Positions 3,129 to 22,236 of a stretch of DNA of 23,806 bases are shown in pieces. A program made the translations under genes and the position numbers. The notes below the pieces were generated by a model. It made no database searches, was not told the DNA's origin, and saw nothing but the letters and a program-made list of their open reading frames with translations. Each line of letters opens with the position of its first letter. Within the stretch, counting starts at the first letter, position 1. The DNA comes from a virus: positions 1 to 23,806 of IMG/VR virus record IMGVR_UViG_3300001533_002172, one strand, 5' to 3'.

Positions 3129-3312
3129 ATCCTTGCCGTGTTAATTCCTCTAATATAAACTCCTGTATATTATCTAATTCACATCCTGTGTATATGTCAT
3201 CTGTCAAACCCCTGAGTAAACTTTTTGTTTCCTCAACTTCGTCAAATTGAATCTTTATAATAAAAGGTTCAAACGGTTTAATCTTTTGGACTTTCTCAAT
3301 TTCAATTTTCAT
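3118..3312 (-). CDS. Small hypothetical protein downstream of recA
   Basis: The 64-aa product (begins MKIEIEKVQKIKPFEPF) is acidic and soluble and has no motif I recognise. Its ATG at 3312 overlaps the stop of the recA C-terminal part by ATGA, so it is likely co-translated with RecA. The C-terminal helix 'NIQEFILEELTRQGY' could be a small interaction surface. Function unknown. Confidence 0.5.
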   Translation of the reverse strand: MKIEIEKVQKIKPFEPFIIKIQFDEVEETKSLLRGLTDDIYTGCELDNIQEFILEELTRQGYVI

Positions 3313-4058
3313 CTCTTTTTCTTTTTGCGTTCATGTTCAAATTTGCTTTCAATTTCTTCCCACAAATCAATAACCTGGTTTTTCAATTCTTCTTCTAAAC
3401 TTTCTTCTTCCACAACTTGAATTGATTTTTCCATGCTATTGTTCAACACATTATCATTCACGGAATAAACTTTGCTTCCTGTGTAGTTTTTAACGAATTG
3501 CAAATTGGCACGAATGTCATCTATTCCATAGTCATAGTAAATAACAATTTCAGCGGTGCGATGAGGTTTCCAAATTGAACTTTTATCCACCTCAATCTCT
3601 CCTTCAATTCCTACAACCCTTTCTACCTTTTTCCCTTTAACCAAAACACTTTCTTTTATTTTTTTGAAACGTGTAAATCGAAGAATAAGACTGGAATAAA
3701 ATTCAATTGCTTTTCCACCTGGATTGACATCTTTTCGTGCCCATGCTCCTCCATCCATGTTCTCACGGATTTGATTGGTGCAAAACAATATAATGTTACC
3801 ATGGCTAATAATTTGTTTGCTTTTACGCAAATACATACTAAATTCTTTTGCTCGTCTGCCTCCCATTTTATCCCCTTCTTCATTTTCCATTTCCAGAGAA
3901 GTAGACAACGCCGCCAAACTGTCAACAAAGTAACCATATAGTTGATCCTTTTCATGTTTTGTTTCCATGAGTGTTTTAAATGCCTCAGGAATAATGTCTG
4001 GTTTAGAATAAACCATTTGCTCAACATCTAAATCAAACACTTCTGCAAATGGTTTATT
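3309..4058 (-). CDS. recA: RecA-like recombinase, C-terminal part (gene interrupted by adapter sequence)
   Basis: From the codon at 4058 the frame encodes about 249 residues with RecA core features after Walker A. These are a Walker B-like strand 'LYGYFVDSLAALS', the 'ILFCTNQIRENM' strand that leads into loop L2, and 'NPGGKAIEFYSSLILRF', matching the RecA 'GGNALKFYAS' region. The C-terminal tail is charged ('VVEEESLEEELKNQ...EHERKKKKR'). RecA forms filaments on ssDNA and drives strand exchange; the neighbouring SSB and mediator candidate fit. The open frame appears to extend to 4157, but residues upstream of 4058 translate adapter sequence ('STLFPYTTLFRS') and are not biological. The matching N-terminus is at 4112-4309 in a different frame, and the Walker A segment between them is missing from this assembly. 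Confidence 0.85.
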   Translation of the reverse strand, partial: NKPFAEVFDLDVEQMVYSKPDIIPEAFKTLMETKHEKDQLYGYFVDSLAALSTSLEMENEEGDKMGGRRAKEFSMYLRKSKQIISHGNIILFCTNQIRENMDGGAWARKDVNPGGKAIEFYSSLILRFTRFKKIKESVLVKGKKVERVVGIEGEIEVDKSSIWKPHRTAEIVIYYDYGIDDIRANLQFVKNYTGSKVYSVNDNVLNNSMEKSIQVVEEESLEEELKNQVIDLWEEIESKFEHERKKKKR

Positions 4059-4111
4059 AGATCGGAAGAGCGTCGTGTAGGGAAAGAGTGTAGATCTCGG
4101 TGGTCGCCGTA
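4059..4111. other. Illumina P5/TruSeq adapter embedded in the contig (artefact)
   Basis: The plus strand starts AGATCGGAAGAGCGTCGTGT at 4059 and continues to GGTGGTCGCCGTA at 4111. This is the reverse complement of the Illumina universal P5 adapter lacking its last five bases. Its two out-of-frame translations give the familiar contaminant peptides STLFPYTTLFRS and DLHSFPTRRSSDL. The adapter sits exactly where the RecA Walker A segment should be, so native sequence was lost when the contig was joined here. Confidence 0.98.
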
Positions 4112-4309
4112 CGCTACAACCATGATTCCTGCAGGAATTCCTCCACCTCGAACACACCCTCCACTAATTGCTAAATCAAGCAAAGTGGAACCTGTGCTGA
4201 GAACATTTTCAGTATCTCCTTCATATTCCTTTCTGCGAGTTGGTTTCATTGTAGCGTGTCGTTTTGCTTGACTACCAAGATCAACATTCTTCGTTCGTTC
4301 TCTTTTCAT
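4112..4309 (-). CDS. recA: RecA-like recombinase, N-terminal part (truncated by adapter sequence)
   Basis: From ATG at 4309 the frame gives 66 genuine residues. These include 'VLSTGSTLLDLAISGG' and 'GGGIPAGIMVVA', which match the RecA region leading into Walker A ('STGS..LD.ALG.GG.P.G.i.eiyGP'). Translation beyond 4112 runs into adapter. The expected 'GP..SGKT' and the next 30-40 residues are absent, and the C-terminal part resumes at 4058 in another frame. An upstream in-frame TTG at 4324 exists, but ATG is preferred. The start overlaps the preceding gene by 29 bases. In the real genome this and 3309-4058 should be one gene of perhaps 350 codons. Confidence 0.85.
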
Positions 4310-4658
4310 TTTCAATGATTTCAATTATTTCATCAATACAATCTTCCAATCCTTTGAACTTTAATTCAATTGCCAATTCACTTTTGAAACTATTGAAGTT
4401 CTTTCTCCTTCCCTCAGGATTTTTCCAAACTTCAAATGCCTTGTGTGCAACGTTTTTAATAATAACATCTCTTGGAAGAGTTGATTTTGTCCTGTCCATC
4501 CATTCTAACAACATAGATTTTAGAACGAAAGATTTTGTCATCCCAATAGAGAGGCAATAAAGGGAGAAATAAGAGCCCATCCTCTTCGGGATGTAAACTC
4601 CTAAGAATTGGGCTTCCTCTCTACGAACTCTTTTTACTTTTCTCCTTAATATTGTCAT
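4281..4658 (-). CDS. Hypothetical protein between ssb and recA, possible ribbon-helix-helix
   Basis: The 125-aa product has a basic N-terminus ('MTILRRKVKRVRREE'), then 'GVYIPKRMGSYFSLYCLSIGMTKSFVLKSMLLEWMD'-type order: a short strand followed by two helices, loosely like a ribbon-helix-helix DNA-binding unit. The C-terminus is helical and acidic ('ECIDEIIEIIENEK'-like). The ATG at 4658 overlaps the SSB stop by 4 bases, and the 3' end overlaps recA by 29. Position suggests a role with SSB or RecA. The fold guess is weak and the function unknown. Confidence 0.5.
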   Translation of the reverse strand: MTILRRKVKRVRREEAQFLGVYIPKRMGSYFSLYCLSIGMTKSFVLKSMLLEWMDRTKSTLPRDVIIKNVAHKAFEVWKNPEGRRKNFNSFKSELAIELKFKGLEDCIDEIIEIIENEKRTNEEC

Positions 4659-7032: not shown

Positions 7033-7947
7033 CTACTCTCCTTCTATTACACGATAGCAAGCCAACACCAATCCTGGAAATCCTATGTTGTAAAACGGAT
7101 CCTCAAAACATTCTAAAACCAATCCTGCTTGACTGTTCCCTCCTTTTAATAAAACACTTGTTGCATAACCTAAAACAACTCTTCGAACACCTTCTGCGTC
7201 TTGCCCTTTCAATCCTGTTAAAATTCTGCTAACTTCTCTCCATCCTTTTCTTCCTATCAATGCCCTGCAGAGTTCAATGCTTTCGGTTTGTTCAATAGCG
7301 GCTTGCTGAGCTGTTCTCAGCCTGCGTCCTGCAGGTGTGTTCAACACCTGCTCCAGTATAGTTAAGGCGTTACGAGGCAATCCCTGGCTGTCTGTAATAA
7401 TTTGGTCAACAACTTCTTTGTCTAACTTGTCATTTTCTTTTTCAACAATGTCAAGCAATAAAGCCTCCATTTCTGTGTCGTCAAGAGGTTCAACTTGGAA
7501 TTGACTACAACGTCCTTTGATAGTTGGTAACAAACTACCTGGTTCAGTCGTACACAAAATGAAGTAAACAGATTGTGGTGTGTCTTCCAAAATTTTCAAA
7601 AATGCGTTTTGAGCATCTGTTGTCATTTTGTGAACCTCATCAATAATGTACGTTCTTCTACCTCCACCCAGTGGTGTGTAAAGGCAATTTTTACGTATCT
7701 CACGAACTGTATCAATACCACGGAATTGTGCCGTATCTAATTCAATTGTGTTGTTTTCCGTACAACCTAATTCACGTGTTACAATTCTTGCCAATGTAGT
7801 TTTTCCACAACCTGTAGGGCCGTGGAATAGAAACGTGTGCGGACATTTTTCAATGTCTTTTAACATAGTTCTCAACGGAGCAATTATATGTCTGTTGCCC
7901 CTTACCTCTTTCAATGTCTGTGGTCGATGTTTTATGTATAAACTCAT
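7033..7947 (-). CDS. DnaX/RFC-like clamp-loader ATPase
   Basis: The 304-aa AAA+ protein begins 'MSLYIKHRPQTLKEVRGN', the DnaX/RFC small-subunit opening. Walker A GPTGCGKT lies at 43-50, Walker B IIDEVH at 101-106, the sensor-1 strand 'FILCTTEP' near 129-136 and the 'GRCSQF' (SRC-type) motif at 145-150. A helical C-terminal domain follows. Clamp loaders open the sliding clamp and place it on primed DNA using ATP. The zinc-binding cysteines typical of bacterial DnaX are missing, and there is no separate delta subunit in the window, so a homo-oligomeric or host-assisted loader is possible. A promoter-like element ends only 6 bases before the ATG (7954-7984). The phage clamp gene lies upstream at 11157-12185. 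Confidence 0.85.
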   Translation of the reverse strand: MSLYIKHRPQTLKEVRGNRHIIAPLRTMLKDIEKCPHTFLFHGPTGCGKTTLARIVTRELGCTENNTIELDTAQFRGIDTVREIRKNCLYTPLGGGRRTYIIDEVHKMTTDAQNAFLKILEDTPQSVYFILCTTEPGSLLPTIKGRCSQFQVEPLDDTEMEALLLDIVEKENDKLDKEVVDQIITDSQGLPRNALTILEQVLNTPAGRRLRTAQQAAIEQTESIELCRALIGRKGWREVSRILTGLKGQDAEGVRRVVLGYATSVLLKGGNSQAGLVLECFEDPFYNIGFPGLVLACYRVIEGE

Positions 7948-7953
7948 ATTATG

Positions 7954-7984
7954 TAAAGTTAATTAAAATCAAAATAATAACAAA
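7954..7984 (-). promoter_or_regulatory. Bacteroidota-type promoter candidate for the clamp-loader operon
   Basis: Read leftward, TTTG (7984-7981) is followed after exactly 19 bases by TAACTTTA (7961-7954), close to the Bacteroidota consensus TTTG-N19-TAnnTTTG. The predicted start of transcription falls only a few bases from the ATG at 7947, so the message would be nearly leaderless. The surrounding 55-bp gap is almost pure A/T, so chance matches are possible. Confidence 0.45.
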
Positions 7985-8002: not shown

Positions 8003-8254
8003 TTAAAATTCAAATAAACCCTTTGCTGACGAGGGTTTCATTCTCATTCTTTTTGTTGCTGGCTTTGTTCTCACCCTTTTTCTTTCAGTTTTTCCAATCA
8101 TTTCTTGCCATTCTTGTGTGTCTCCTGCTTTGTGAACAATCCTTTCCAGCACACCAATTTCTCTTAATGCAATATCTTTATCAGGTGATTTGTAAAACTC
8201 ACTGACATACTTTTTTCTTGACTCCAGTATTTCAAATAAATAATCAGTGTTCAT
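8003..8254 (-). CDS. Small basic hypothetical protein downstream of the polymerase
   Basis: From ATG at 8254 the product is 83 aa (begins MNTDYLFEILESRKKY). The first two thirds are helical and the C-terminal third is very basic ('ERKRVRTKPATKRMRMKPSS'), ending 'AKGLFEF'. The final 'GLFEF' is reminiscent of short hydrophobic clamp-binding peptides, but I cannot establish this. It overlaps the polymerase stop by 11 bases. Function unknown; a replisome accessory is plausible from position. Confidence 0.5.
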   Translation of the reverse strand: MNTDYLFEILESRKKYVSEFYKSPDKDIALREIGVLERIVHKAGDTQEWQEMIGKTERKRVRTKPATKRMRMKPSSAKGLFEF

Positions 8255-10826
8255 ATGGTTTCTTTTCTGCCCAGCTTTTATCAACTGGACTTAATTCAAA
8301 ATCAACTTCCAGTGGTGTAACAATCCAAGGCCAATGTTGACGAACATCATTACACATGATACATTCTACAATATTTACAACATTGGATAATTCGTTAGGG
8401 TTGACATCAAAAACTATTGAGTCATGTATTTGTCCAACAGGAACAGTATCCCAATGTTCTCTCATTTGAGCTTTTGTAATTTGAATAAAACTCCATAGCA
8501 AACAATGAAATGCAGATCCTTGTATTGGAGAGTTTATCACTTTACGTAAATCCATTACTCCTCTCAATGCAAACCCTGTTTTTGTTCGTATAAATCCGTG
8601 CGTTTGATAGTCCTTCCAGAGCCTCTCTTTCCACTCTTTATACATATAATATTTTCTCCAAAACTCCCTTTCAACTTGTTTAACATTTTCTGTGAAGTCA
8701 TCAAATGATCTTATTCCCTCATTACGGAAATGATCAGACAAATTAGCATCTCTAAATTTGATCCCTTCCCCTCTCCCCCAAAAAGATTTAGAAAGTTTTC
8801 CCCATTCACAAGCCAATCCTTCTGCACAATTTTTGTACCAACTGCCATATAATTCTGGAAAAAAGAAACCGTTTTTGGTTGCTGAACGCAAAAGTTTGTG
8901 GTGAGGATTAGATGCATCATACCCGGCAAACTTAAACACTTTCATACACCATTCTGCATGAACGTCTCCTTCCAACACATCTTTAATTAAATTTTCATCT
9001 TCACTATAACAAGCTGCAATCCTTCCTTCCAATTGTCCATAATCCACTTCCATTAATTGATGCCCTGGGCGTGGATAAATAACACCTCGAATAATTCCAC
9101 CTAACTCTTTGTTTCGAATGGGGATATTCTGAAAATTCGGAGAATCTGAACTGCTTCTGTACGTACGAGCAATATGCAAGTTAAAGAATGGGTGAATGTA
9201 TCCATTAACTGCCTCCCTCTTTAGAGATGATAAATAAGTATTCTTAACCTTTTTTAATTGTTTTAATTGAACTAACAGGTTTAGATCAGGAATATTAAGT
9301 TTTTCTAAAGCATCTTCCCCTGTTGATCCTTGCCGTCCTCCTGAGGTTGTTTTATGTGGTTTGAGTCGTTTTGTTTTGTAAAGAAAATCACTCAATTGTT
9401 GAGGGCTGTAAATGTTCAATGTTTTTTTACTACTCTTCTCCCAGTCTTTTGCAAAATCAGATTCTAAGAATTCCTTTTCTTGCGTTCTAATCTTCCTCTC
9501 AATTTTCCGTTCCTGTTTTTCTACTTCTTTAGAATCAATTCTAATTCCTTGTTGCTCTGCTCTGGTTAATGCAAGAACTCCTTCGTGTAACAAATCGTAC
9601 GCTTCTTTATCTTCTGGACTCATACTATTGATTTGCTTCATAGCTAAACGATATTGATGTGTGCTGTCTTTTGCACAATATTTCATCAGTTTCTGTCTAC
9701 CGGAGTTGGTTTGAATGAGTTCTTTTATTCTATTTAATGAGTTTCCATTTTTGCTTTCAACAGCACTTAACCATTTATCAACATCACTACTGTAATCAAT
9801 AATTCCAAAATTAACATAGGTTTGAAACTTTAATCCAGATATTCCTCCCCTATTATCCAACACGTGAGCAGCCAGCATACTATCCCAATACCAATTCTTA
9901 ACTGTTGCTCCTAAAATCTCTTTGCTCCATTCATGTTCAAATCGCATATTGTGTGCCATTTTTTTAATTCTGCGATTTGTTAATGTTCTAATATAATATT
10001 GTCTTTGAGAAGGATCTTCTGGCATCATGAAAACATAAACATCATTTTCGTTCGTTGCAACACTACAACAAATGATTTCATGCCCTTCTGCTTGCGGTTT
10101 CAATCCTGTTGTTTCGTAGTCTATTGTTTCTTCATTTTCAATTTCATTTAATTCACTCAAGTCTGAGATGTATTTAATATTTGGTTCCTTATAAACTGGA
10201 AATCTGCTATCTAATTTGGCAAATGCCCTTTCCAAATCATTTTTCCAAACCGTAATTAATTCGTCTGCATTTGACCTCATTATAAAACTGGGATGGAAAA
10301 CAGGACAGATCCATGCTTTAAAATCTTGATCAGGAATAGTCCAACCTCTCCATTTGTTGATCCCTCCAATTGCTCCCTTCATCCAACGATGTCCTAAAAT
10401 AGATTCAATAGCCGTGTTCCCTAATAAAACAATAATTTTAGGTTTCCTTTCAGCAATCACTTGTAAAACTCTCCGTCTGCAACATTCTATTTCATAACTT
10501 GTTGGTGTACGATTTGTTCCTTTTTTTGTCATTGGACGGCAACTAACGGCATTGATGTTCAAACAATCTTCAAACAAATCCACTCCCAACTCTTTATACA
10601 TTTTTTGCAATGTTCGCCCAGCTTTTCCTTGCCAAGGTTCACCTCGTGCATCTTCTAATTCACCAGGTGCTTCCCCAATATTTAAAATTCCTTTACGAAA
10701 CTCGCCGTAGGGTTTCATCATAGGTGAATTTACTTTGCGGAATAATCCACAAGAGTGACAAGAACGGGACTTTCCATCAGGTCTTAAAACAGATTGTGTT
10801 TCACGTTTTGTGAAGAATCCTGTCAT
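8244..10826 (-). CDS. UDG-like domain / 3'-5' exonuclease / family A DNA polymerase fusion
   Basis: The product is 860 aa. Residues 1-205 form a family-4-type uracil-DNA glycosylase-like domain: CxxC (C23, C26), GEAPGELED (51-59), GEPWQGKAG, C115/C116, C174 and HPSF (178-181). The cysteines could bind a 4Fe-4S cluster. Residues 230-400 are a DnaQ-like exonuclease with D236/E238 ('DYETTG'), N293-F296-E297 and D387. Residues 410-860 are the polymerase: motif A DYGQLEGR (D595, E600), motif B R647, K651 and F655 ending ELYG, motif C QIHDSIVFDV (H801, D802). Motif C has Ser where E. coli Pol I has Glu883. This is the phage replicative polymerase, working with the encoded clamp and clamp loader. 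UDG-PolA fusions are known from some phages. Whether the UDG part is active cannot be told. Confidence 0.9.
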   Translation of the reverse strand: MTGFFTKRETQSVLRPDGKSRSCHSCGLFRKVNSPMMKPYGEFRKGILNIGEAPGELEDARGEPWQGKAGRTLQKMYKELGVDLFEDCLNINAVSCRPMTKKGTNRTPTSYEIECCRRRVLQVIAERKPKIIVLLGNTAIESILGHRWMKGAIGGINKWRGWTIPDQDFKAWICPVFHPSFIMRSNADELITVWKNDLERAFAKLDSRFPVYKEPNIKYISDLSELNEIENEETIDYETTGLKPQAEGHEIICCSVATNENDVYVFMMPEDPSQRQYYIRTLTNRRIKKMAHNMRFEHEWSKEILGATVKNWYWDSMLAAHVLDNRGGISGLKFQTYVNFGIIDYSSDVDKWLSAVESKNGNSLNRIKELIQTNSGRQKLMKYCAKDSTHQYRLAMKQINSMSPEDKEAYDLLHEGVLALTRAEQQGIRIDSKEVEKQERKIERKIRTQEKEFLESDFAKDWEKSSKKTLNIYSPQQLSDFLYKTKRLKPHKTTSGGRQGSTGEDALEKLNIPDLNLLVQLKQLKKVKNTYLSSLKREAVNGYIHPFFNLHIARTYRSSSDSPNFQNIPIRNKELGGIIRGVIYPRPGHQLMEVDYGQLEGRIAACYSEDENLIKDVLEGDVHAEWCMKVFKFAGYDASNPHHKLLRSATKNGFFFPELYGSWYKNCAEGLACEWGKLSKSFWGRGEGIKFRDANLSDHFRNEGIRSFDDFTENVKQVEREFWRKYYMYKEWKERLWKDYQTHGFIRTKTGFALRGVMDLRKVINSPIQGSAFHCLLWSFIQITKAQMREHWDTVPVGQIHDSIVFDVNPNELSNVVNIVECIMCNDVRQHWPWIVTPLEVDFELSPVDKSWAEKKPYEH

Positions 10827-12732: not shown

Positions 12733-12899
12733 TTTTCTTCAATTCTTTCAATTAATTTCTGAAATCGTGAATTTCCTTTATGACTTTTTGTTTTTATAGA
12801 CTTAAAGGATAAAAGTACACCCCAATTTTGGCTATCCATAGAACGCATTCTTCTGCTGTTCTCTTGTTTTTTTCCGTCTCCTGCAAAATAAATAATCAT
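12729..12899 (-). CDS. 56-aa protein coupled to dpdA, possible detached transglycosylase segment
   Basis: From ATG at 12899 (ATGA overlap with the dpdA stop) the product is 56 aa. It contains 'IIYFAGDGKKQENSRRMRS' and 'NWGVLLSFKSIKTKS'. This resembles the first strand and helix that precede the 'F(I/L)DSGA' motif in phage TGT-like proteins ('...YFAG...LLSYYYL...'). The neighbouring DpdA begins almost directly at that motif and lacks this piece. The two products might therefore form one fold in trans, with the order of the parts swapped in the genome. The resemblance is from memory and weak; an independent small protein is the alternative. Confidence 0.5.
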   Translation of the reverse strand: MIIYFAGDGKKQENSRRMRSMDSQNWGVLLSFKSIKTKSHKGNSRFQKLIERIEEK

Positions 12900-13756
12900 A
12901 ACGCAAATAATTTTTTTCTTAATGAGAATGACCAAGGCCACTTTGGTAAACTATCACATAGGTCTACGAAATACATTGCATTCGCATCGCTTCTCATATC
13001 TGTATCGTTAGACACACCTTTTTCAATAATTTCTCCTTTTTCGTTCGTTTCTCCTAAAACAAATCCTTTTTCTTTTAGATACCTTTCCACAATGTTTTCC
13101 ATGATATGGTTTGTAGTTCGCTTTTTGGTTTTGCTTGGATTGTTTGAAACACGAATTGCATGAAAAGGAACATCATAACGCCACTGATCTCCTCGAAGAT
13201 GGGGAACAATTAATTGACCGTACATAGACAATCTTAACCAGCTTGTACTGTCAACACTCCACCAAGGATACCTTGTCATTAGTCTGTGACTTGTCATAGC
13301 AAAACCGTGAACCTTGACAGCAGGAGTTCTGTCTTTTGTGTCACAAATGATGTCAAACATTTCGTCCGCCCACTTTTTATATCCACTATACGATCCTTTT
13401 TGACCAACACCTCCTAATGCTATATATTTGTACCCGTCTTTTAGATACCTAATCAAATATTTCCTATCTGTGTCTGCGTGAACAACAGGGATAGGATGCA
13501 ATCCATGTTCTTCTTCAAGGTACTTTTGAGATTTATATGTTAATTCTGGATTGAATATAACATCTACATTGGCATAATTCACAATTTTGCCATTCATATC
13601 TTTTACAAATTTAGCAAATAAATCCAAGTATTTTTTGAACTCGTCTGTTTCATACCACAGGTAGCCGTTTTTACCTCCTACATTTTTAACGAATTCGTTG
13701 TATAAACCATGGGCGCCTGAGTCTATGAATACAGGATTGACAAAACTTCTTTTCAT
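12896..13756 (-). CDS. dpdA: DpdA-like DNA guanine transglycosylase (TGT superfamily)
   Basis: The 286-aa product has the landmarks of the TGT/DpdA barrel. These are 'FIDSGAHG' with D12 as probable general acid/base, 'VVHADTD' (91-97), the base-binding glycine motif 'YIALGGVGQKG' (111-121), 'KVHGFAMTS' (148-155) and 'WWSVDSTSW' (165-173), where D169 is the probable nucleophile. The tRNA-enzyme zinc site (three Cys and one His) is not visible, as expected for a DNA-acting relative. DpdA enzymes exchange guanine in DNA for a 7-deazaguanine, blocking host restriction. FolE, a QueD paralogue, QueE and QueD encoded just upstream supply the precursor. It starts two bases after the QueD paralogue and overlaps the 56-aa gene by ATGA. 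Alternative: a tRNA-specific TGT relative, less likely in this context. The N-terminus is short. Confidence 0.75.
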   Translation of the reverse strand: MKRSFVNPVFIDSGAHGLYNEFVKNVGGKNGYLWYETDEFKKYLDLFAKFVKDMNGKIVNYANVDVIFNPELTYKSQKYLEEEHGLHPIPVVHADTDRKYLIRYLKDGYKYIALGGVGQKGSYSGYKKWADEMFDIICDTKDRTPAVKVHGFAMTSHRLMTRYPWWSVDSTSWLRLSMYGQLIVPHLRGDQWRYDVPFHAIRVSNNPSKTKKRTTNHIMENIVERYLKEKGFVLGETNEKGEIIEKGVSNDTDMRSDANAMYFVDLCDSLPKWPWSFSLRKKLFAL

Positions 13757-13758
13757 AA

Positions 13759-14076
13759 TTATTCTTTTATTATTTCTGCTCCATTTTCATCATCTTCAAA
13801 AACACTGACATAAACTGCCTTAAATGTTTTCATCAGTGTTTCTGCTATGTCTTCACAAGAAGTGTTTTCAAGATAATGATCAAGATAATTTATTTTTATA
13901 AATAAATCAACTTGCCACTTCTTTTTTATAAATTCAATTTCTCTGTCATTATGAGAAACTTCCCATTTCATTGTTACATAGAAAACGTGGCGGTGTTCAT
14001 ACTTGAGATAATTTTTTGCCTTTTTCCAACTGTGAGTTGCTGAAAAACTGGTTTTAATCACAACATATTTTTTCAT
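13759..14076 (-). CDS. QueD/PTPS-fold paralogue lacking the catalytic cysteine
   Basis: The 105-aa product aligns by eye with the second QueD-like protein of this window (17393-17752). 'FSATHSW' (11-17) corresponds to 'FCAAHQL'. 'YEHRHVFYVTMKWEV' (26-40) corresponds to 'VHGHNYKVKVEL', keeping the zinc ligands H15, H28 and H30. 'LDHYLENTSCEDIAETL' corresponds to 'LDHQFLNN...TAENIAKW', keeping the Asp-His pair. The position of the QueD catalytic cysteine (four residues before the second His) is Leu24. It probably binds zinc and a pterin- or deazapurine-like ligand but should not perform the QueD reaction. It lies between the glycosyltransferase (ATGA overlap) and dpdA (2-base gap). A role in altering 7-carboxy-7-deazaguanine, for example decarboxylation, is inference. 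Confidence 0.65.
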   Translation of the reverse strand: MKKYVVIKTSFSATHSWKKAKNYLKYEHRHVFYVTMKWEVSHNDREIEFIKKKWQVDLFIKINYLDHYLENTSCEDIAETLMKTFKAVYVSVFEDDENGAEIIKE

Positions 14077-15104
14077 AACATTTCATTAATCATATTTCCT
14101 ATCGCTTGTTTTCCCTTTTCAAGTAATACCTTTCTATTATAATGAACTAATTGTGGAATGTTTGGATATTGATCTATGTAATGTAAAAATTTAGAATATA
14201 TAGAATCTATATCACTTTTCTTATCGCCTTCATATAAAAATAAGTTATCATATAATTCACGATAACTTAATCTATTTGGACATAAAGGTATATTATATTG
14301 AAATAATGCCTCTTGCATTCCAATCCCCCAATTCTCATGTAAGGCAAACGATATTGCAATATAAGATCGATTTAAGAGGTTATAATATTCTTCTTTGGTT
14401 CGATGGATATCTTGAGTTCTAATAAATTGCCAACCAGTATTTTCTCCTCTTTCTTCTTTAAATCTTTTTTCAAGCTCTAAAAATAAATTGGGTTGTTTTT
14501 CAGAGTTTAATCTATGAGGAAATACAACAATTTTTTCCTTTTTTACCGGTTGGCATTTTGGAGGATAAATAGGAAATCCTGTGACTTTAATCTTTTCAGG
14601 GACTGCATCTCGATACTTTATCACGATCCGTTTGTGAAATTCTGTGGCAACGAAAACTTTATCTACTAATTTAAAAATAGAATTCTCAAACCCTTCTCCC
14701 CATTTCGCCATTCCTTTCAATGTTATGTAGTCTTGAGGCTCATAACTACCAGAATGTAAACAACCCATAATTCTTAGGTTCTTCCATTCCATTCCATCTC
14801 TAATATAACTAATCGCTTGTATTCCAGGAAACCATATATCGTGAAAGAATAAAACAAGTGGATAAGAATCATCGTATGTTCTAAGGTAAACCAATATTTT
14901 CTGCAATTGAGCCAGCTTGTATTCATTTGTGTCAATTAAATCAAGAAATCCTCCATGTTCAATCTCTCCACTACAATTATCACCGTAAATGGTGTGAACA
15001 AATAATTCTTTGTGATATCGGAATTGGGTGAGAAACCAAGTATCCCATTGCTTTGTGTATCTAATGTCTAAAGGTTCAATTGGAACATTTAATATTGTTG
15101 TCAT
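14073..15104 (-). CDS. GT-B fold glycosyltransferase inside the deazaguanine cluster
   Basis: The 343-aa product looks like a GT4-like glycosyltransferase. The N-terminal domain has '[16 protein letters not shown]' (81-96) and 'MGCLHSGSY' (113-121). The C-terminal donor-binding domain has '[16 protein letters not shown]' (193-208, with R198 and K203 expected near the nucleotide-sugar phosphates) and '[16 protein letters not shown]' (253-268), an E-x7-E motif (E257, E265). Such enzymes transfer sugar from a nucleotide sugar. It overlaps folE upstream and the QueD paralogue downstream by 4 bases each, so it is co-translated with the base-modification enzymes. This makes modified DNA base a likely acceptor. 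Glycosylation of a protein or surface polymer is the alternative, but no such genes are nearby. No membrane segment is seen. Confidence 0.7.
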
Positions 15105-15664
15105 TTGATTAAATGTAAAAATTCTTCTCTCACAGCTTGATTTTCACGGAAAACACCTTTGATGCTGGATGTTACCATAATAGAATTTTGTTTTGCCACA
15201 CCTCTCATCCTCATGCAGGTGTGTGTTGCTTCAATAATACAAGCGGCACCGTGCGGATTAAGGTATTGCATCAATGCATCTGTGACTTGCTCTCCGATTC
15301 GTTCTTGTATTTGCAATCTGCGAGCATACATATCAACAAGTCTTGCCAATTTACTTATACCTATAACTTTTTCATTAGGAATGTATGCAACATGAGCTTT
15401 ACCAAAAAATGGCAACATATGATGTTCACACATGCTGTAAAGCTCAATGTCTTTCAATAAAACCATTTGATCATATCCATCAGCTTCAAAAATAGTTAAT
15501 AAGTCTGCTGGGTTTTTATCGTATCCAGAATATAATTCTTGCCAACTTTTAAAAATTCTGTAAGGAGTTTTTTTCAATCCTTCTCTTTCAGGATCTTCTC
15601 CTATATATTCAATCATTTTTCTTAAATGATGTTTAATATTTGCTTCGTTTGATGTATCTGTCAT
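15101..15664 (-). CDS. folE: GTP cyclohydrolase I
   Basis: The 187-aa product is a clear type I GTP cyclohydrolase. It contains '[16 protein letters not shown]' (29-44), '[19 protein letters not shown]' (78-96) with zinc ligands C79 and H82, '[21 protein letters not shown]' (103-123) and '[12 protein letters not shown]' (145-156) with the third ligand C150. It converts GTP to dihydroneopterin triphosphate, the first step of both folate and 7-deazaguanine synthesis. Linkage to queD, queE and dpdA points to the deazaguanine route. Length equals the compact bacterial form. No Shine-Dalgarno is visible; a 12-bp hairpin (15687-15721) lies just upstream. Its stop overlaps the glycosyltransferase ATG by 4 bases. 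Confidence 0.95.
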
Positions 15665-15686
15665 AATGAATTTTTGTTTACAAAAG

Positions 15687-15721
15687 TGAGAAAGGAGAAA
15701 AATAATTAATCTCCTTTCTCA
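15687..15721 (-). terminator. Hairpin between the winged-helix gene and folE
   Basis: A perfect 12-bp inverted repeat pairs 15687-15698 (TGAGAAAGGAGA) with 15710-15721 around an 11-nt A/T loop. Reading leftward, it follows the stop of the 15733-16347 gene and is followed by CTTTTG, a weak U-tract. It could terminate that transcript or protect and regulate the folE message. A smaller dyad, TTTTGT-TT-ACAAAA at 15672-15685, lies between it and folE. Confidence 0.55.
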
Positions 15722-15732
15722 GCAGGAAAAAT

Positions 15733-16347
15733 TTAACCTTCAAATTTAAGAAATAAAGTTTTTGCCTCTTTGTCTTCAACAATGTGAAGATCCAGGCCGC
15801 GGTTCTTTTCCAAATGGTAAAAGTGAGACCGAACACGGGCTTTGCTTAGTCCTGTGTCTTTCATAACATCATCAATCGAGATTTTTTTGCCTTTGTTTGC
15901 AAGTAAACTCTCATCGATGTTTCCAGCTTGTGATCCAACTCTGTGTCCCAATTCCGTTTTTTCAAATTCCTTTTTCGGTTTCTTTTCTTTCTTCTCAGGT
16001 TTCTCTTTCTTTTCCTTTTTCTCCGGTTTAGCCTTTTCTTCTTTCACAGGCTTTCCTGATCTCTTTCTCGACTTTTCTTCCGGCTCAGGTTCATCATCCT
16101 GCTCTTCATCCTCTTTGTCATCCTCTTCTGGCTCTTCCGGTTCCTCTTTTAGTTGATCAAAAATCTCTTGTGTTGAATCAGTGAATTTGTCTCCAGGTTC
16201 AACCAGCTCTTCAACCGTCTCAAGCAATTCACGTGAAAACTCTTCAACTGAAAGATCTTCATAATCTATTGGAGGGTCAACTCCAATAACCTTGTCCAAT
16301 TCTTTGTAGGCAGCAACGAGTTGCCGCTTTGTCAATTTTTTTGCCAT
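15733..16347 (-). CDS. Charged-linker protein with C-terminal winged helix
   Basis: The 204-aa product has three parts. Residues 1-66 are helical ('LTKRQLVAAYKELDKVIGVDPP...'). About 67-135 is a low-complexity linker, first acidic (EEPEEPEEDDKEDEEQ) and then Lys/Pro/Glu repeats (KPEKKEKKEKPEKKEKKPKK). Residues 150-204 look like a winged helix: 'ISIDDVMKDTGLSKARVRSHFYHLEKNRGLDLHIVED'. A DNA-binding or regulatory role is likely. It is monocistronic-looking: a 109-base A/T-rich gap lies upstream and a strong hairpin downstream. It sits in the middle of the deazaguanine genes but need not belong to that pathway. No Shine-Dalgarno precedes the ATG. Confidence 0.6.
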   Translation of the reverse strand: MAKKLTKRQLVAAYKELDKVIGVDPPIDYEDLSVEEFSRELLETVEELVEPGDKFTDSTQEIFDQLKEEPEEPEEDDKEDEEQDDEPEPEEKSRKRSGKPVKEEKAKPEKKEKKEKPEKKEKKPKKEFEKTELGHRVGSQAGNIDESLLANKGKKISIDDVMKDTGLSKARVRSHFYHLEKNRGLDLHIVEDKEAKTLFLKFEG

Positions 16348-16456
16348 AGCATTGAAATTTTTAAAATTAAGTAAATCAAAATATTAAATTAATGTATGAA
16401 TTTACAAATAATAATTGATATTTGCAAATTTTTAAAGAATTATTTTAAAAAAAGTT

Positions 16457-17221
16457 TTAAACACCAACATTTTTATTCCACAAAACGATATGCTCTCTTG
16501 TGCAATACCTCACATTATGTTTCACAGCCATTTCAACAACCACATTTCTGTTTTCTTCCAACTCTTTTTGTGTTGCCCCAAGTGGCATCAAAATAATTTG
16601 ATTCTTTTTAATCAAACTTGGTTTAAGAAAAAGATTTTCAATCTCTCCCCATTCCTCTTCAAGCCAAACAACAAACTTAAACCAGGAATTTTCTAATTGA
16701 GCTGTCTTATAAATAGCATTTTCACGATAACGAATTTTTGGATTAACTCCAGAACTTGACAACTTTGGGGAATTGTTCCATTGACTAACAAATTGAATTA
16801 ATTTAGATTCTGGAACGATTGTGCATTCATTTTCAATTTCAACAAAAGGCAGAAATCCAAATCTGTTTACAAACCCCCATAGAAACTCTGCAATCGCTGA
16901 TTGTTGTAACAAAGGAGCGCCTCCTGTTATCACTAAATGTTGTCCGTCCCGTAGTTTGTCAACTAACAAACTTTCATTCATCATTTGATATAATTCCATG
17001 AACGTGTAAGGTTGATGGAAACGCCAAACTTCTGTTGTGTCGCAATACACACAGTTGACGTGACAACCGCCAAGACGAAGAAACGCTGCAGGACAACCTG
17101 TTGAAACTCCTTCTCCCTGAATTGTGTCAAAATAAAATTCTGATACCTTTAAATACTTTGAAGTATTTAGCTTTGGTAATTCTTTTCTTTCTGTAAAAGC
17201 CTTAATCAATTGTGTGCTCAT
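16457..17221 (-). CDS. queE: 7-carboxy-7-deazaguanine synthase (radical SAM)
   Basis: From ATG at 17221 (ATGA overlap with the upstream stop; a GTG three codons earlier is less likely) the product is 254 aa. 'FDTIQGEGVSTGCPAAFLRLGGC' (31-53) is the QueE signature around the substrate site, followed by the radical-SAM CX3CX2C cluster, C53-C57-C60 ('CHVNCVYCDT'). QueE converts 6-carboxytetrahydropterin to 7-carboxy-7-deazaguanine. The next motif reads TGGAP (99-103), where QueE and most radical-SAM enzymes have TGGEP; the Glu-to-Ala change is at the SAM-binding GGE motif. Otherwise the protein appears full length and intact. It lies in a tight cluster with queD and a 63-aa protein. Confidence 0.9.
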   Translation of the reverse strand: MSTQLIKAFTERKELPKLNTSKYLKVSEFYFDTIQGEGVSTGCPAAFLRLGGCHVNCVYCDTTEVWRFHQPYTFMELYQMMNESLLVDKLRDGQHLVITGGAPLLQQSAIAEFLWGFVNRFGFLPFVEIENECTIVPESKLIQFVSQWNNSPKLSSSGVNPKIRYRENAIYKTAQLENSWFKFVVWLEEEWGEIENLFLKPSLIKKNQIILMPLGATQKELEENRNVVVEMAVKHNVRYCTREHIVLWNKNVGV

Positions 17222-17409
17222 TTTATCCACTCCTCCTTTCCTATTTCTAATGCTTCCAATATAGATAGCTTTGGGTTGTTTTCCAATGCTTGAAAAGCGG
17301 AAGCAATTACTTCACATTTTAAGCCAAACTCTTGAGCTTCATGTAATACTTTGGCTATCTCAGGATCCAAGTCATTTAAACCTAAATTTGGACTATTTGT
17401 CTTCTTCAT
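17218..17409 (-). CDS. Small conserved protein between queD and queE
   Basis: The 63-aa product is helical with the C-terminal pattern 'ALENNPKLSILEALEIGKEEWIK'. I recognise this style ('ALK.M.ENP..SIEEAL..G..EW') from small proteins common in Bacteroidota phages. It overlaps queD by 17 bases and queE by ATGA, so it is translated together with them. That position does not prove a role in deazaguanine synthesis, because related proteins occur in other contexts. Function unknown. Confidence 0.6.
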   Translation of the reverse strand: MKKTNSPNLGLNDLDPEIAKVLHEAQEFGLKCEVIASAFQALENNPKLSILEALEIGKEEWIK

Positions 17410-17752
17410 ATCTTGCCCAGGTTTTATCAGTTTCAGAAACGTCTACTGCAGACAACAATGGATATCTTTGTTTCCATTTATAGAAAATCCATTTTGCAAT
17501 ATTTTCTGCGGTTGGATTACCGGGAATAACATTATTCAAAAATTGATGATCCAACGTAATATCAATCCAGTTTCCAATTCCTTTTAGTTCTCCATAATCC
17601 TGAACCATTCCTGCTGAATCAAGATCATTGCTTTTCAGTTCCACTTTCACTTTATAGTTGTGCCCATGAACACGACTGCAAGGGTGCCCTTCTCCCAATT
17701 CATTTAATTGGTGAGCGGCACAAAACGAAAATTCTTTTGTAATCTTAAACAT
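17393..17752 (-). CDS. queD: 6-carboxytetrahydropterin synthase
   Basis: From ATG at 17752, preceded by AAGGAAA, the product is 119 aa; a longer frame from 17779 lacks support. It has the complete QueD/PTPS site: 'FCAAHQL' with zinc ligand H14, 'PCSRVHGHNYKVKVEL' (24-39) with catalytic C25 and ligands H29 and H31, 'LDHQFLN' with the catalytic Asp-His pair, 'TAENIAKWI' and 'VSETDKTWARY' near the C-terminus. QueD turns dihydroneopterin triphosphate, the FolE product, into 6-carboxytetrahydropterin for QueE. Length matches bacterial QueD (about 120). The second copy at 13759-14076 is divergent and Cys-less, so this one is presumably the biosynthetic enzyme. Confidence 0.93.
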   Translation of the reverse strand: MFKITKEFSFCAAHQLNELGEGHPCSRVHGHNYKVKVELKSNDLDSAGMVQDYGELKGIGNWIDITLDHQFLNNVIPGNPTAENIAKWIFYKWKQRYPLLSAVDVSETDKTWARYEEDK

Positions 17753-17834
17753 AGTTTCCTTTTTTAATATATTATACAATTCTCAAATCAATTTCATGTA
17801 AAAAAACTTGCTTTTTTATTTTGCCAGCGTTGTC

Positions 17835-18923: not shown

Positions 18924-20453
18924 CTAATAAAAACTACCTAAAAACGGTTTCCCAATCTTCAATTGTTGTAAAACATTAACTTCTTGTGAGCTGTGAAAAT
19001 CTCCTTCACGCAACACAATTCTATTTATTCTCATCAAACCAATTTCTTTTTCCCGTCCTTCTTTGTCCTGGTTTAATCCAAAGGTTGCAGTAACGTGATC
19101 GTATTTGCGACGATCTTCTGTAAAGTTCCCCATGTCCAGTCGGTTTGACTTGTAACTTTGAGCATCTGTTTGAGTGGCAGTTATTAATAATGCATCTTGT
19201 GTCTGAGACAATCCACGAAGTCTTCTCCAAATGTGATCTTGTTGATGACGAAATTCCATTTTAACCTCAGGCACTAACAAATCAGCATAATCAACGATAA
19301 TAACGTCTGGCACAAAATCATCTTGTCGTTTCCAAACATCTAACACTCTTTCAATTTCACTAACCGTTAGACTGGAATTTGCATAAGAAGCCATCTTTAT
19401 CATTCTGCCTGCTTTAACAAAGAATTTACGAACAACTTTTTTTGCCTCCCTAACACCAAGTGGTTCAGTTATAATTTTCTTTTCTAACCAAATGCTCCCC
19501 CATTTGTTCCTTTGCCAGTCAACACAATTAAAACAGGGTTTGTAATCTGGATTGTCTTTTAAGGCTTCAATTAGATTTTGTTTCGTAATTTTATCCCTAT
19601 CCGAAACGTCTTCTAACACACCAAATCTGCATTCTCTAATCTTTTTATCACAAGTGTCGTTTTGATTTTTTAAACAATCTTGATGTGGAACGTAAATCTC
19701 ACCACAATCTCTTTGCTGAGTTGGTTTCTCTGCCAAGTAAGAGCAAATCCTGACTAACTGTTCTAACTCTGTCATGTCTCCTGCTTGAAAGAATGCAACT
19801 TTTCTTTTTTGTGCATAGGACCTCATCATGAATTCCAACAACCAAAATGTCTTTCCCATTTTTGCCCTGCCCATCAACGCAACGAATCCACCTCTTCTCA
19901 ACTCTTCATTCCAAAATTCACCTAATGCTCCAGGAAATTTTATAACAATGCGACGGTTTTTGTTGAACGCTTCAGTCACTCTTTCTAAAGTTTCAGGTTG
20001 AGACAAATCAAGCCCTTCATTCAAACCTCCTTCTTTCAGTTTAAATTGTTTTATCTCTTCTTTTGCTTTTTCAACATCTCCTTTTTCAAGCAAAGATTCA
20101 GTCAGTTCATTATGTAGTTTTATTTGTCGTTCAATGAAATATGCCCGAGTCTTTTTCAACAGCTTATCGATGGTAATGGTTTCTTTTTCGAACTCTGCAC
20201 TCAACTCGGGCAATATTTCTGTTTCAATTTCTTCCGCAATACTTTTATTCAGTCCTTTCTTTAATTTCTCAATATAAATAATATCAATTTCGTGCATTGG
20301 TGCATGACTAAACTCTGCAAAATATTCCCAACACCAGCTGGCAAGAATTCTTGCCGTAGGACTTTCTATGTAATCAGCATTCCACTCAGATTTTAACTGG
20401 GTGAGATAATCTGTGTTGGTGATTAATCCTATTAGTATTTTTCTTTCAATCAT
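18924..20453 (-). CDS. DnaB-like replicative helicase with a Cys-rich insertion
   Basis: The product is 509 aa. Residues 1-170 form a helical N-terminal region. The RecA-like motor starts with 'FPGALGEFWNEELRRGGFVALMGRAKMGKT', Walker A at 195-202. Walker B 'DVIIVDYADLL' is at 383-393, followed by 'ALLITATQTDAQS' (H3-like Gln) and a C-terminal 'LMRINRIVLREGD' region. Between Walker A and B lies an insertion with six cysteines (C250, C260, C268, C275, C307, C310) ending 'CFNCVDWQRNKW', a probable zinc or iron-sulfur site not found in E. coli DnaB. The protein should unwind DNA at the fork; a DnaC-like loader and an initiator are encoded just upstream. A 51-aa ORF overlaps its start. Confidence 0.82.
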   Translation of the reverse strand: MIERKILIGLITNTDYLTQLKSEWNADYIESPTARILASWCWEYFAEFSHAPMHEIDIIYIEKLKKGLNKSIAEEIETEILPELSAEFEKETITIDKLLKKTRAYFIERQIKLHNELTESLLEKGDVEKAKEEIKQFKLKEGGLNEGLDLSQPETLERVTEAFNKNRRIVIKFPGALGEFWNEELRRGGFVALMGRAKMGKTFWLLEFMMRSYAQKRKVAFFQAGDMTELEQLVRICSYLAEKPTQQRDCGEIYVPHQDCLKNQNDTCDKKIRECRFGVLEDVSDRDKITKQNLIEALKDNPDYKPCFNCVDWQRNKWGSIWLEKKIITEPLGVREAKKVVRKFFVKAGRMIKMASYANSSLTVSEIERVLDVWKRQDDFVPDVIIVDYADLLVPEVKMEFRHQQDHIWRRLRGLSQTQDALLITATQTDAQSYKSNRLDMGNFTEDRRKYDHVTATFGLNQDKEGREKEIGLMRINRIVLREGDFHSSQEVNVLQQLKIGKPFLGSFY

Positions 20454-20698: not shown

Positions 20699-21268
20699 TC
20701 ATAAAGAATATGCTTTTGTTTTAACTTCTATTTTGCACATCCTGTTAATTCTGCTTGTTATTCTTTGATCCTGCAATCTCTTTTCCAATTCCTCCAGTGT
20801 ATAATTTGAAGTAATAATTGTTTTCTTCATATATTCATATCTGTGATTAATTAAATGATACAAAACGTCAGTGACCCAATCTGTTGGACGTGTTGTCAAA
20901 AAGTCATCAATCACCAACAAGTGTGCATCTAAATATTTCCTCATCACATCACTTTGCTTTTTGTCTTCACACTCAAAAGTTTCTTTCAATTCAGCTAACA
21001 AGTCTGAGAAACTCACAAACAAGATTTTGTCAAACAAACTTGGATCACCATATGTCAAATACAAATGTTTCAATTCCTGCATTATCATGAACGCGGCACG
21101 AATAGTTTTTCCACTTTGAATCTCTCCATAGATAAATGTGCTCTTTGCTTCATTCCCTCTCAAATCATCTGGAATTGGAAGTGTTCTTAAATCCTGAGCA
21201 ATTCGCGGAGGAAATTTTCTCAAATATTTTTCTTTGTATTGTATATTCCAACGTTGACTTGTTCTCAT
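20699..21268 (-). CDS. DnaC-like helicase loader (AAA+ ATPase)
   Basis: The 189-aa product shows the DnaC/DnaI AAA+ core. Walker A is GEIQSGKT (48-55) in 'STFIYGEIQSGKTIRAAF', Walker B 'HLLVIDDF' (116-123), the sensor-1 strand 'TIITSNYT' (150-157) and 'RITSRINRMC' (169-178), the box VII arginine region typical of DnaC. 'LFVSFSDLLAELKETF' matches the conserved strand-helix between Walker motifs. It loads the DnaB-like helicase encoded next. The family is usually 230-260 aa; here the N-terminal helicase-binding region is short (about 40 residues). The ATG overlaps the initiator stop by 4 bases. Confidence 0.85.
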   Translation of the reverse strand: MRTSQRWNIQYKEKYLRKFPPRIAQDLRTLPIPDDLRGNEAKSTFIYGEIQSGKTIRAAFMIMQELKHLYLTYGDPSLFDKILFVSFSDLLAELKETFECEDKKQSDVMRKYLDAHLLVIDDFLTTRPTDWVTDVLYHLINHRYEYMKKTIITSNYTLEELEKRLQDQRITSRINRMCKIEVKTKAYSL

Positions 21269-22236
21269 ACTGGTATTGATTTTTTATATTTCAAAGTTTG
21301 TTTTCCCTGGAACCCTGTTGTTTTAGAATTCACAGGTGTTGATTTGCTTCGTTCAATTGCACTTTCCAATCTTAGGAATTTGTCACGCAATGATTGTCCA
21401 CTTTCAATAACTGGAACGAAATCATCTCCCCAATGATGTTTGTACCAACGGAGGGCAATTCTAATTCGGCGGGATTCAACACCGTCACGTTCAACAAGTT
21501 GGCGGATAGAATTACTCCAGGTATTTAATTTTCTTTTATCAACCTTTATATTCTTTTTCTGTTGGATTATCATTGCCAATAATTCAGCTATTGGAATGTA
21601 AGTTTTATTTCTGTCTGTCGAGGTTCGTTTAGAACCTTCGACAATGTTATCTTTAGTTTTATTATTTAGTTTTATTTCTTTAGTATTATTAGTATTATTA
21701 TTTATAATAATAGAATTCTCAGGTTTCCTAATAATTAATTTTGAGGTTTCCTGAGAATTAATTCTCAGGTTTCCTAATAATAGAGATCGTAAAAATTGGT
21801 CTCTTTCTTTAATCAAATCATCCAAAAGTAATTCATCTTTTTTTAATTCTGACAACAATTCAAACCCTGTTTGTGCCGTTATATGTAATAAATTCAAATT
21901 TATTTTAAAATATTCTTTTGGAGGGGATCCACTCACTTTTCTTTCAATTAAATTATACTCACATAATTGATTTCTTGCAGTTCGATATTGAGAAATAGTT
22001 AAACCTGTCCAAAACAGAAGTAATGGTTGTTTACAATAAAACCAACGATTTTTATTTTGCCATAATGAACTTAAATCAATTAATTTTGAAAGAAGTAAGG
22101 TTACATTTGGGGGAAAAAATATCATTAGTCCATCACTAATTCTTGTATAATATTTTTGACCTTTTCCATCATATAATTGATGAGCTATTTCTTCTGATGC
22201 AAAATCAAAATATTCTTTTCGGGTATGATATTCCAT
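21265..22236 (-). CDS. Replication initiator / replisome organiser-like protein
   Basis: The product is 323 aa. Residues 1-140 include a likely winged-helix domain ('LLFWTGLTISQYRTARNQLCEYNLIERKVSG'). A low-complexity Asn/Lys/Ile linker follows (about 170-205). The C-terminal part has 'LNTWSNSIRQLVERDGVESRRIRIALRWYKHHWGDDFVPVIESGQSLRDKFLRLESAIERS', a pattern I know from phage initiator/DnaD-like proteins encoded beside DnaC-type loaders. Such proteins bind origin repeats and recruit the loader-helicase complex. The gene contains three 23-bp spaced repeats next to an A/T tract, resembling the origin inside lambda O. Its promoter region is 22237-22432. The next gene (loader) starts within its stop codon. 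Confidence 0.7.
   Translation of the reverse strand: MEYHTRKEYFDFASEEIAHQLYDGKGQKYYTRISDGLMIFFPPNVTLLLSKLIDLSSLWQNKNRWFYCKQPLLLFWTGLTISQYRTARNQLCEYNLIERKVSGSPPKEYFKINLNLLHITAQTGFELLSELKKDELLLDDLIKERDQFLRSLLLGNLRINSQETSKLIIRKPENSIIINNNTNNTKEIKLNNKTKDNIVEGSKRTSTDRNKTYIPIAELLAMIIQQKKNIKVDKRKLNTWSNSIRQLVERDGVESRRIRIALRWYKHHWGDDFVPVIESGQSLRDKFLRLESAIERSKSTPVNSKTTGFQGKQTLKYKKSIPV
21640..21713. other. A/T-rich tract beside the iterons, candidate DNA-unwinding element
   Basis: Immediately left of the iterons lie about 74 bases that are almost entirely A/T, including two tandem TAGTATTAT units (21681-21698) and TTATAATAATAG. The tract codes for the Asn/Lys/Ile linker of the initiator. Iterons next to an easily melted A/T tract are the usual layout of theta-type origins such as lambda ori. 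Function is inferred from this layout only. Confidence 0.5.
21714..21789. repeat. Three 23-bp-spaced iterons within the initiator gene (putative origin)
   Basis: The core AGGTTTCCT occurs at 21721-21729, 21744-21752 and 21767-21775, spaced exactly 23 bp. The outer copies share 22 identical bases (21714-21735 and 21760-21781, offset 46 bp). Between copies two and three lies a perfect 20-bp palindrome, 21750-21769, centred on AATT. Neither 23 nor 46 is a multiple of three, so the encoded peptide does not repeat; the DNA itself seems to be under selection. Position inside an initiator gene suggests initiator binding sites. Confidence 0.7.

Follow-up and report, generated by a model that had tools for sequence, protein, structure and literature searches.

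A probable iteron origin of replication embedded in the initiator gene of an uncultured phage

Results

Organization of the initiator locus

The window analyzed here is the entire 23.8-kb virus record. Its minus strand carries an initiator gene (positions 21265..22236) coding for a protein of 323 amino acids, which we assigned as an O-like/DnaD-like replisome organizer on the basis of PHROG matches and an AlphaFold2 model. The matching families are phrog_2514 (3.1e-10), labeled DnaD-like, phrog_9773 (“replication initiation O-like,” 1.5e-7), and also phrog_391 and phrog_4880. Farther along the same strand lie the genes of a DnaC/IstB-like helicase loader (20699..21268; phrog_50, 1.4e-32; IstB_IS21, 2.3e-9) and of a DnaB-like replicative helicase (18924..20453; phrog_19, 1.1e-27). 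An earlier note on this DNA had placed both directly after the initiator. This holds for the loader gene, which overlaps the stop codon of the initiator by 4 nt, and only loosely for the helicase gene, which starts 245 nt past the loader gene. At the related locus L003 (5998–6001), the helicase gene comes right after the initiator gene with no loader gene between; the loader is therefore not a fixed neighbor.

The window holds several other gene sets. Positions 8244–10826 code for a family A DNA polymerase in which an N-terminal uracil-DNA-glycosylase-superfamily domain and a 3′–5′ exonuclease domain are fused to the polymerase. The genes at 12896–17779 encode a TGT-like protein (phrog_887), GTP cyclohydrolase I, a radical SAM protein, and 6-pyruvoyl tetrahydropterin synthase; this combination points to deazaguanine (queuosine-type) synthesis and possibly serves DNA or tRNA modification. 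A RecA-like gene (PF00154, 5.4e-19) is split between the ORFs 3309–4157 and 4028–4324. It contains a stretch (4061–4113) that we take to be an Illumina TruSeq adapter and that is probably an assembly artefact rather than biology.

Predicted structure of the initiator

The AlphaFold2 model of the initiator (mean pLDDT 78.7, 29-sequence alignment) comprises a winged helix at residues ∼35–112 (21901..22134, minus strand), more helices up to residue 154, a predicted disordered linker (residues 167–198, pLDDT below 50), and a confidently predicted helical C-domain (residues 206–298; 21343..21621, minus strand). To judge from the model and its fold matches, the winged-helix N-domain is the likely iteron binder, whereas the C-domain likely contacts the helicase or its loader. 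The C-domain is 51% identical to the L003 initiator over 91 amino acids.

When the N-domain was superposed with known structures by VIA-align 2, the best fold matches, within residues 25–135, were staphylococcal RepA_N plasmid initiators, namely 4pql (Z 10.0, rmsd 3.7, 108 residues aligned), 4pt7 (Z 9.7, rmsd 3.4, 103 aligned), and 5kbj (Z 8.5, rmsd 3.4, 106 aligned), with 4pta also among the matches. Other winged-helix regulators score up to Z 9.2; the margin in favor of the RepA_N fold is accordingly small, and Foldseek on its own returned nothing below an E-value of 0.001. Independently, the sequence profile of the family puts 5kbj, 4pt7, and 4pql first (E 0.004–0.005). The Pfam family RepA_N (PF06970) matched neither the window protein at E ≤ 0.1 nor the 29 family members at 0.01, and a Pfam search up to 0.01 gave no match tying the initiator to the lambda O protein family. 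By model and profile, the fold of the N-domain appears closest to that of RepA_N plasmid initiators.

An iteron array in the linker-coding DNA

The middle of the initiator gene contains three tandem units of 22–23 bp (21714..21781, minus strand), detected by tandem-repeat scoring against codon shuffles. As the earlier note had described, they share the word AGGTTTCCT, which is found on the plus strand at 21721, 21744, and 21767 with a spacing of exactly 23 bp. A fourth copy lies outside the array, at position 10440; the chance expectation is 0.24 copies in the window, and none of 100 shuffles contained four. The two outer units are indeed identical over 22 nt (21714–21735 and 21760–21781), and the middle unit is 82% identical. 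No other tandem repeat in the window scores as high as the array (score 110), the runner-up (61) being located in the adjoining A/T tract, and no repeat in 60 codon-shuffled copies of the initiator gene equaled it.

Each unit forms a dyad in which two arms of 8 bases flank a core of 3 bases; six of the eight arm pairs are complementary in every copy. On the plus strand, iteron 3 (21762..21780), the first in gene direction, and iteron 1 (21716..21734) both read TTCTCAGG-TTT-CCTAATAA, and iteron 2 (21739..21757) reads TTTTGAGG-TTT-CCTGAGAA; the core is thus AAA on the gene strand. There is one stronger half-site (TTCTCAGG/CCTGAGAA) per unit, and it alternates in side. The perfect 20-bp palindrome CCTGAGAATTAATTCTCAGG, which had been reported at 21750..21769, is present there and has no second site in the window, even allowing three mismatches. 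It is composed of the right arm of unit 2 and the left arm of unit 3, that is, of the facing strong half-sites of these iterons, and is no separate element. Triplets of 6-of-8 dyads with a 3-nt core, spaced 23 bp apart, occur at a single position in the whole window. A dyad test on the consensus of the window's units was not significant (p = 0.17), which we attribute to the consensus mixing alternating halves. A 14-base pattern derived from the iterons gave at least 119 single matches in viral contigs, and these were judged to be chance.

The array proper encodes residues 152–175 of the 323, and array and A/T tract together encode residues 152–197. They overlap the stretch with pLDDT below 50, in agreement with the proposal that this DNA codes for the linker. 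The shared word is read in frames 2, 1, and 0 (contexts LGNL, QETS, and RKPE), and a peptide repeat is therefore excluded, as had been argued before. The same reading in three different frames speaks against the repeat acting as RNA or protein, be it an mRNA hairpin or a peptide repeat. The palindrome can be folded as RNA (−16.5 kcal/mol, z −1.84), but 12 of 200 shuffles fold equally well, on which grounds we rejected the hairpin, and the window has no Rfam match. We give hardly any credence to a function at either level.

Directly downstream of the array in gene direction, an A/T-rich tract (21648..21713, minus strand) adjoins, with 89.4% A+T and imperfect 13–14-bp repeats, which by base composition and repeat scoring is a candidate unwinding element. 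Its presence had been noted correctly. The tract spans 66 nt; with 40 A and 19 T, the gene strand is rich in A. Among 23741 segments of the same length, 56 are equally A+T-rich, the richest others lying near 7930–7959 and 16350–16384. A 20-nt A/T stretch beside the array (21693–21712) is identical in the window and in the initiator gene of L058, despite differing iterons and N-domains of only 29% identity.

Repeats in related initiators

Used as the sole query, the initiator found no relatives in viral contigs or in the phage and plasmid collections. Because it is too variable for a direct search, we used the helicase as query, which led to 53 viral loci, and located their initiators by an iterated profile. 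An initiator profile search added 41 viral loci and two genome loci; the latter belong to Bacillota and Bacteroidales metagenome assemblies, and neither has a significant array. From 67 initiator ORFs with a minimum length of 450 nt, deduplication by shared 12-mers left 51, the window itself (L001) not being counted, and 577 other ORFs, reduced to 516 in the same manner, served for comparison. The significance of tandem repeats was judged against codon shuffles.

The earlier note had suggested looking for spaced repeats that are kept in homologous phages while their sequence differs, and this is what we observe. Significant arrays are present in 37 of the 51 initiators compared with 44 of the 516 other genes (Fisher p = 3.7e-24), and their sequences vary from phage to phage. 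They lie mid-gene in 36 of the 37 initiators, and the lag is 22–24 bp in 23 of them. The lag is not divisible by three for 18 of the 37 initiator arrays, as opposed to 7 of the 44 other-gene repeats (p = 0.0018). Since some of the “other” genes (at L009, L025, L038, and L047) are probably further initiator types with arrays, the comparison is conservative.

A neutral tandem duplication, or minisatellite, in a tolerant linker might explain an array in a predicted disordered region and its variation among phages, the more so as tandem repeats also occur in the other genes, many of them as acidic low-complexity stretches. The enrichment in initiators and the preference for 22–24 bp argue against this explanation, as does one word that is kept in several frames across an N-domain family whose members are 49–62% identical to L003 (six-member alignment; see below). 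We therefore regard a minisatellite as very improbable.

By the codon-shuffle measure, 14 of the 51 initiators lack a significant array; one of these, L029, is truncated by the end of its contig. L004 encodes the helicase nearest to the window's own (64%) and shows a weak 15-bp repeat only and no significant array. In lambda O, which served as a control, the procedure found a mid-gene match in the annotated iterons with a score that was reached by 5 of 300 shuffles. Such a weak pass indicates that the array test misses some true origins, its sensitivity to degenerate iterons being limited, and that it proves none.

Tests of A+T content, dyads, and array similarity covered the 37 significant arrays. 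The mean A+T content of the 60 nt downstream is 0.743 versus 0.639 upstream, and it is higher downstream in 30 of the 37 (p = 1.5e-5); other-gene repeats lean the same way, more weakly (25 of 44, p = 0.002). Few arrays show a clear internal dyad, with 5 of 37 reaching p = 0.05 (combined p = 0.0024). Words of the A/T tract are barely enriched above shuffles (9-mers: 12 sequences versus a shuffle maximum of 10), and we therefore claim no common unwinding word.

These data also bear on whether the array is an autoregulatory operator for the initiator–loader–helicase operon, bound by the initiator or a repressor and without origin function. Dyad units and a winged-helix binder resemble such an operator, but the array is located mid-gene rather than at a promoter, this position is kept in nearly all arrays of the relatives, and the A+T content rises downstream. 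We consider a pure operator unlikely; a secondary regulatory role may exist alongside an origin.

A GC-skew shift at the array had been suggested as a further indicator of an origin. The sign of the skew does not change there in the window, and a change was seen in 0 of the 34 significant-array loci (out of 37) whose flanks were long enough for the skew counts. Skew is higher downstream of the array in 30 of these 34 loci, and for the 15 of 37 loci with flanks long enough for a split-point control, the step at the array is 0.048 versus −0.001 at other split points (p = 0.026). The skew step is weak evidence for an origin.

A DNA word that goes with one N-domain family

The more similar two N-domains are, the more similar their arrays tend to be (rho 0.19, p = 7e-7), a small effect with equal medians among 666 pairs that are not independent; for C-domain similarity, the same 666 pairs give rho 0.02 (p = 0.63). 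Many of the strongest array pairs come from one N-domain family, that of L003 mentioned above. A search with this N-domain alone yielded 59 loci (L245–L303), or 53 ORFs after deduplication; the N-domain of L245 is unmatched in the phage collection.

The word AAATGCTTTAA, allowing up to one mismatch, occurs mid-gene in 47 of these 53 ORFs with 93 copies, compared with 11 copies on either strand of the flanks, which total 240438 nt. The usual distance between copies is 24 or 22 bp; 76 copies fall in frame 0, 11 in frame 1, and 6 in frame 2. In L286 and L290, a single gene reads the word in all three frames, as seen in the L286 ORF at offsets 494, 516, and 538. Variable repeats are found upstream of AAATGCTTTAA in the same linkers.

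The C-domains were grouped by clustering, after a sorting by text patterns had left 46 of the 53 as “other.” Whereas 52 of the 53 N-domains fall into one cluster, the C-terminal parts of 51 ORFs form 15 clusters, the two remaining ORFs having C-terminal parts below 60 amino acids. AAATGCTTTAA was found in at least one member of each of the 15 C-terminal clusters. Its independence of the reading frame, together with one N-domain cluster facing 15 C-terminal clusters, argues strongly, at the level of sequence comparison, that these linkers contain DNA elements which go with the N-domain. AAATGCTTTAA may be the site that the N-domain itself recognizes or a different element of the origin.

Discussion

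The array in the window very probably provides the iterons of a replication origin that is embedded in the initiator gene and works as in lambda O/ori. This reading is carried by the repeats that relatives keep at the same place, their independence of the reading frame, the arrangement of the genes, and the domain layout predicted for the initiator. The lambda-like layout proposed in the earlier note is borne out by the mid-gene position, the ∼23-bp spacing of dyad units, the downstream A/T tract, and the 4-nt overlap with the loader gene. The facts given in the note are correct, and so, to the extent that a comparison can show it, is their interpretation.

By analogy with known origins, we infer protein binding, DNA unwinding, helicase loading, and origin firing to proceed as follows. 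The winged-helix N-domain, probably as a dimer, would bind each 19-bp dyad, which on the gene strand presents TTCTCAGG- and CCTGAGAA-type arms around AAA with two mismatched pairs per copy. With all three units occupied at a distance of about two helical turns, the DNA would be wrapped or bent, and the neighboring A/T tract could melt as a result. Loader (DnaC-like) and helicase (DnaB-like), both encoded by the phage itself, would next be brought in by the C-domain. The flexible linker that joins the C-domain would simply be the peptide that the origin happens to encode.

The N-domain and its cognate DNA words could constitute a single specificity cassette, exchangeable as a whole and fused to many unrelated C-domains in a large group of uncultured phages, an idea for which we see the chances as about even. 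The TTCTCAGG/CCTGAGAA array of the window would then be one private “key,” and, if the cassette holds true, the position of an origin and the specificity of its initiator could be read straight from sequence.

Because relatives keep the layout while the letters of the sites change, a known kind of system becomes predictable in unstudied phages. The comparative result across relatives is a more useful outcome than the single window: it allows replication origins to be placed from sequence in uncultured phages whose initiators are unmatched in the phage collection, and it supplies many natural initiator/iteron pairs for studying site choice by winged-helix initiators.

Comparison with known systems

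A plasmid precedent for a joint exchange of binding domain and origin is the chimeric initiator of pPR9, in which N-domain and origin are reported to have changed together while the C-domain was kept (PMC5703833), similar to what the N-domain families of the relatives suggest. In contrast to the phage system, pPR9 is a plasmid, and its N-domain is of the HTH_36 type (PF13730), which has no match in the window protein and matched 1 of the 29 members of alignment A6.

Structurally, the window initiator resembles the RepA_N initiators of pSK41 and pTZ2162. Rep of pSK41, described as a protein of 319 amino acids, recognizes four Rep boxes that are situated mid-gene in rep itself, and its central part is a linker encoded by the origin (PMC5703833). 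With 323 amino acids, the window protein is of nearly the same length and shares the predicted order of winged-helix N-domain, origin-encoded linker, and helical C-domain. RepA_N iterons are reported as inverted repeats that converge on a poly-A tract (PMC7145576); the dyads of the window are likewise inverted repeats, with an AAA core on the gene strand. A helical, DnaD-like C-domain that contacts the host primase is a further trait of RepA_N initiators; in the window protein, the C-domain is helical in the model, and the protein matches phrog_2514, labeled DnaD-like. Staphylococcal RepA_N initiators, among them 4PTA and 4PT7 from Staphylococcus aureus (PMC7145576), provide both the top fold matches of the N-domain and the top profile matches of the family (E 0.004). 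The window protein differs in that it has no PF06970 match, is followed by phage replisome genes, and is unmatched in the plasmid collection.

In lambda, iterons and an A/T-rich tract that is crucial for unwinding are described in the middle of the O gene (PMC7466680). According to the annotation used for our control, the iterons lie mid-O with start spacings of 20, 24, and 23 bp, and O and P overlap by 4 nt. The window shares the origin in mid-initiator, iterons ∼20–24 bp apart, the A/T tract, and the 4-nt overlap of initiator and loader genes. It has three units as opposed to four in lambda, with an unrelated iteron sequence, its loader is DnaC/IstB-like, and the phage encodes its own DnaB-like helicase. 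A possible sequence kinship with lambda O is indicated only via the PHROG families labeled O-like (9773 and 391). The papers that came up on this subject include work on lambda, Stx phages, and plasmids; by title and the start of the abstract, none of them surveys iteron origins inside genes of uncultured phages. The window is a further case of an in-gene iteron origin, an arrangement long known from lambda.
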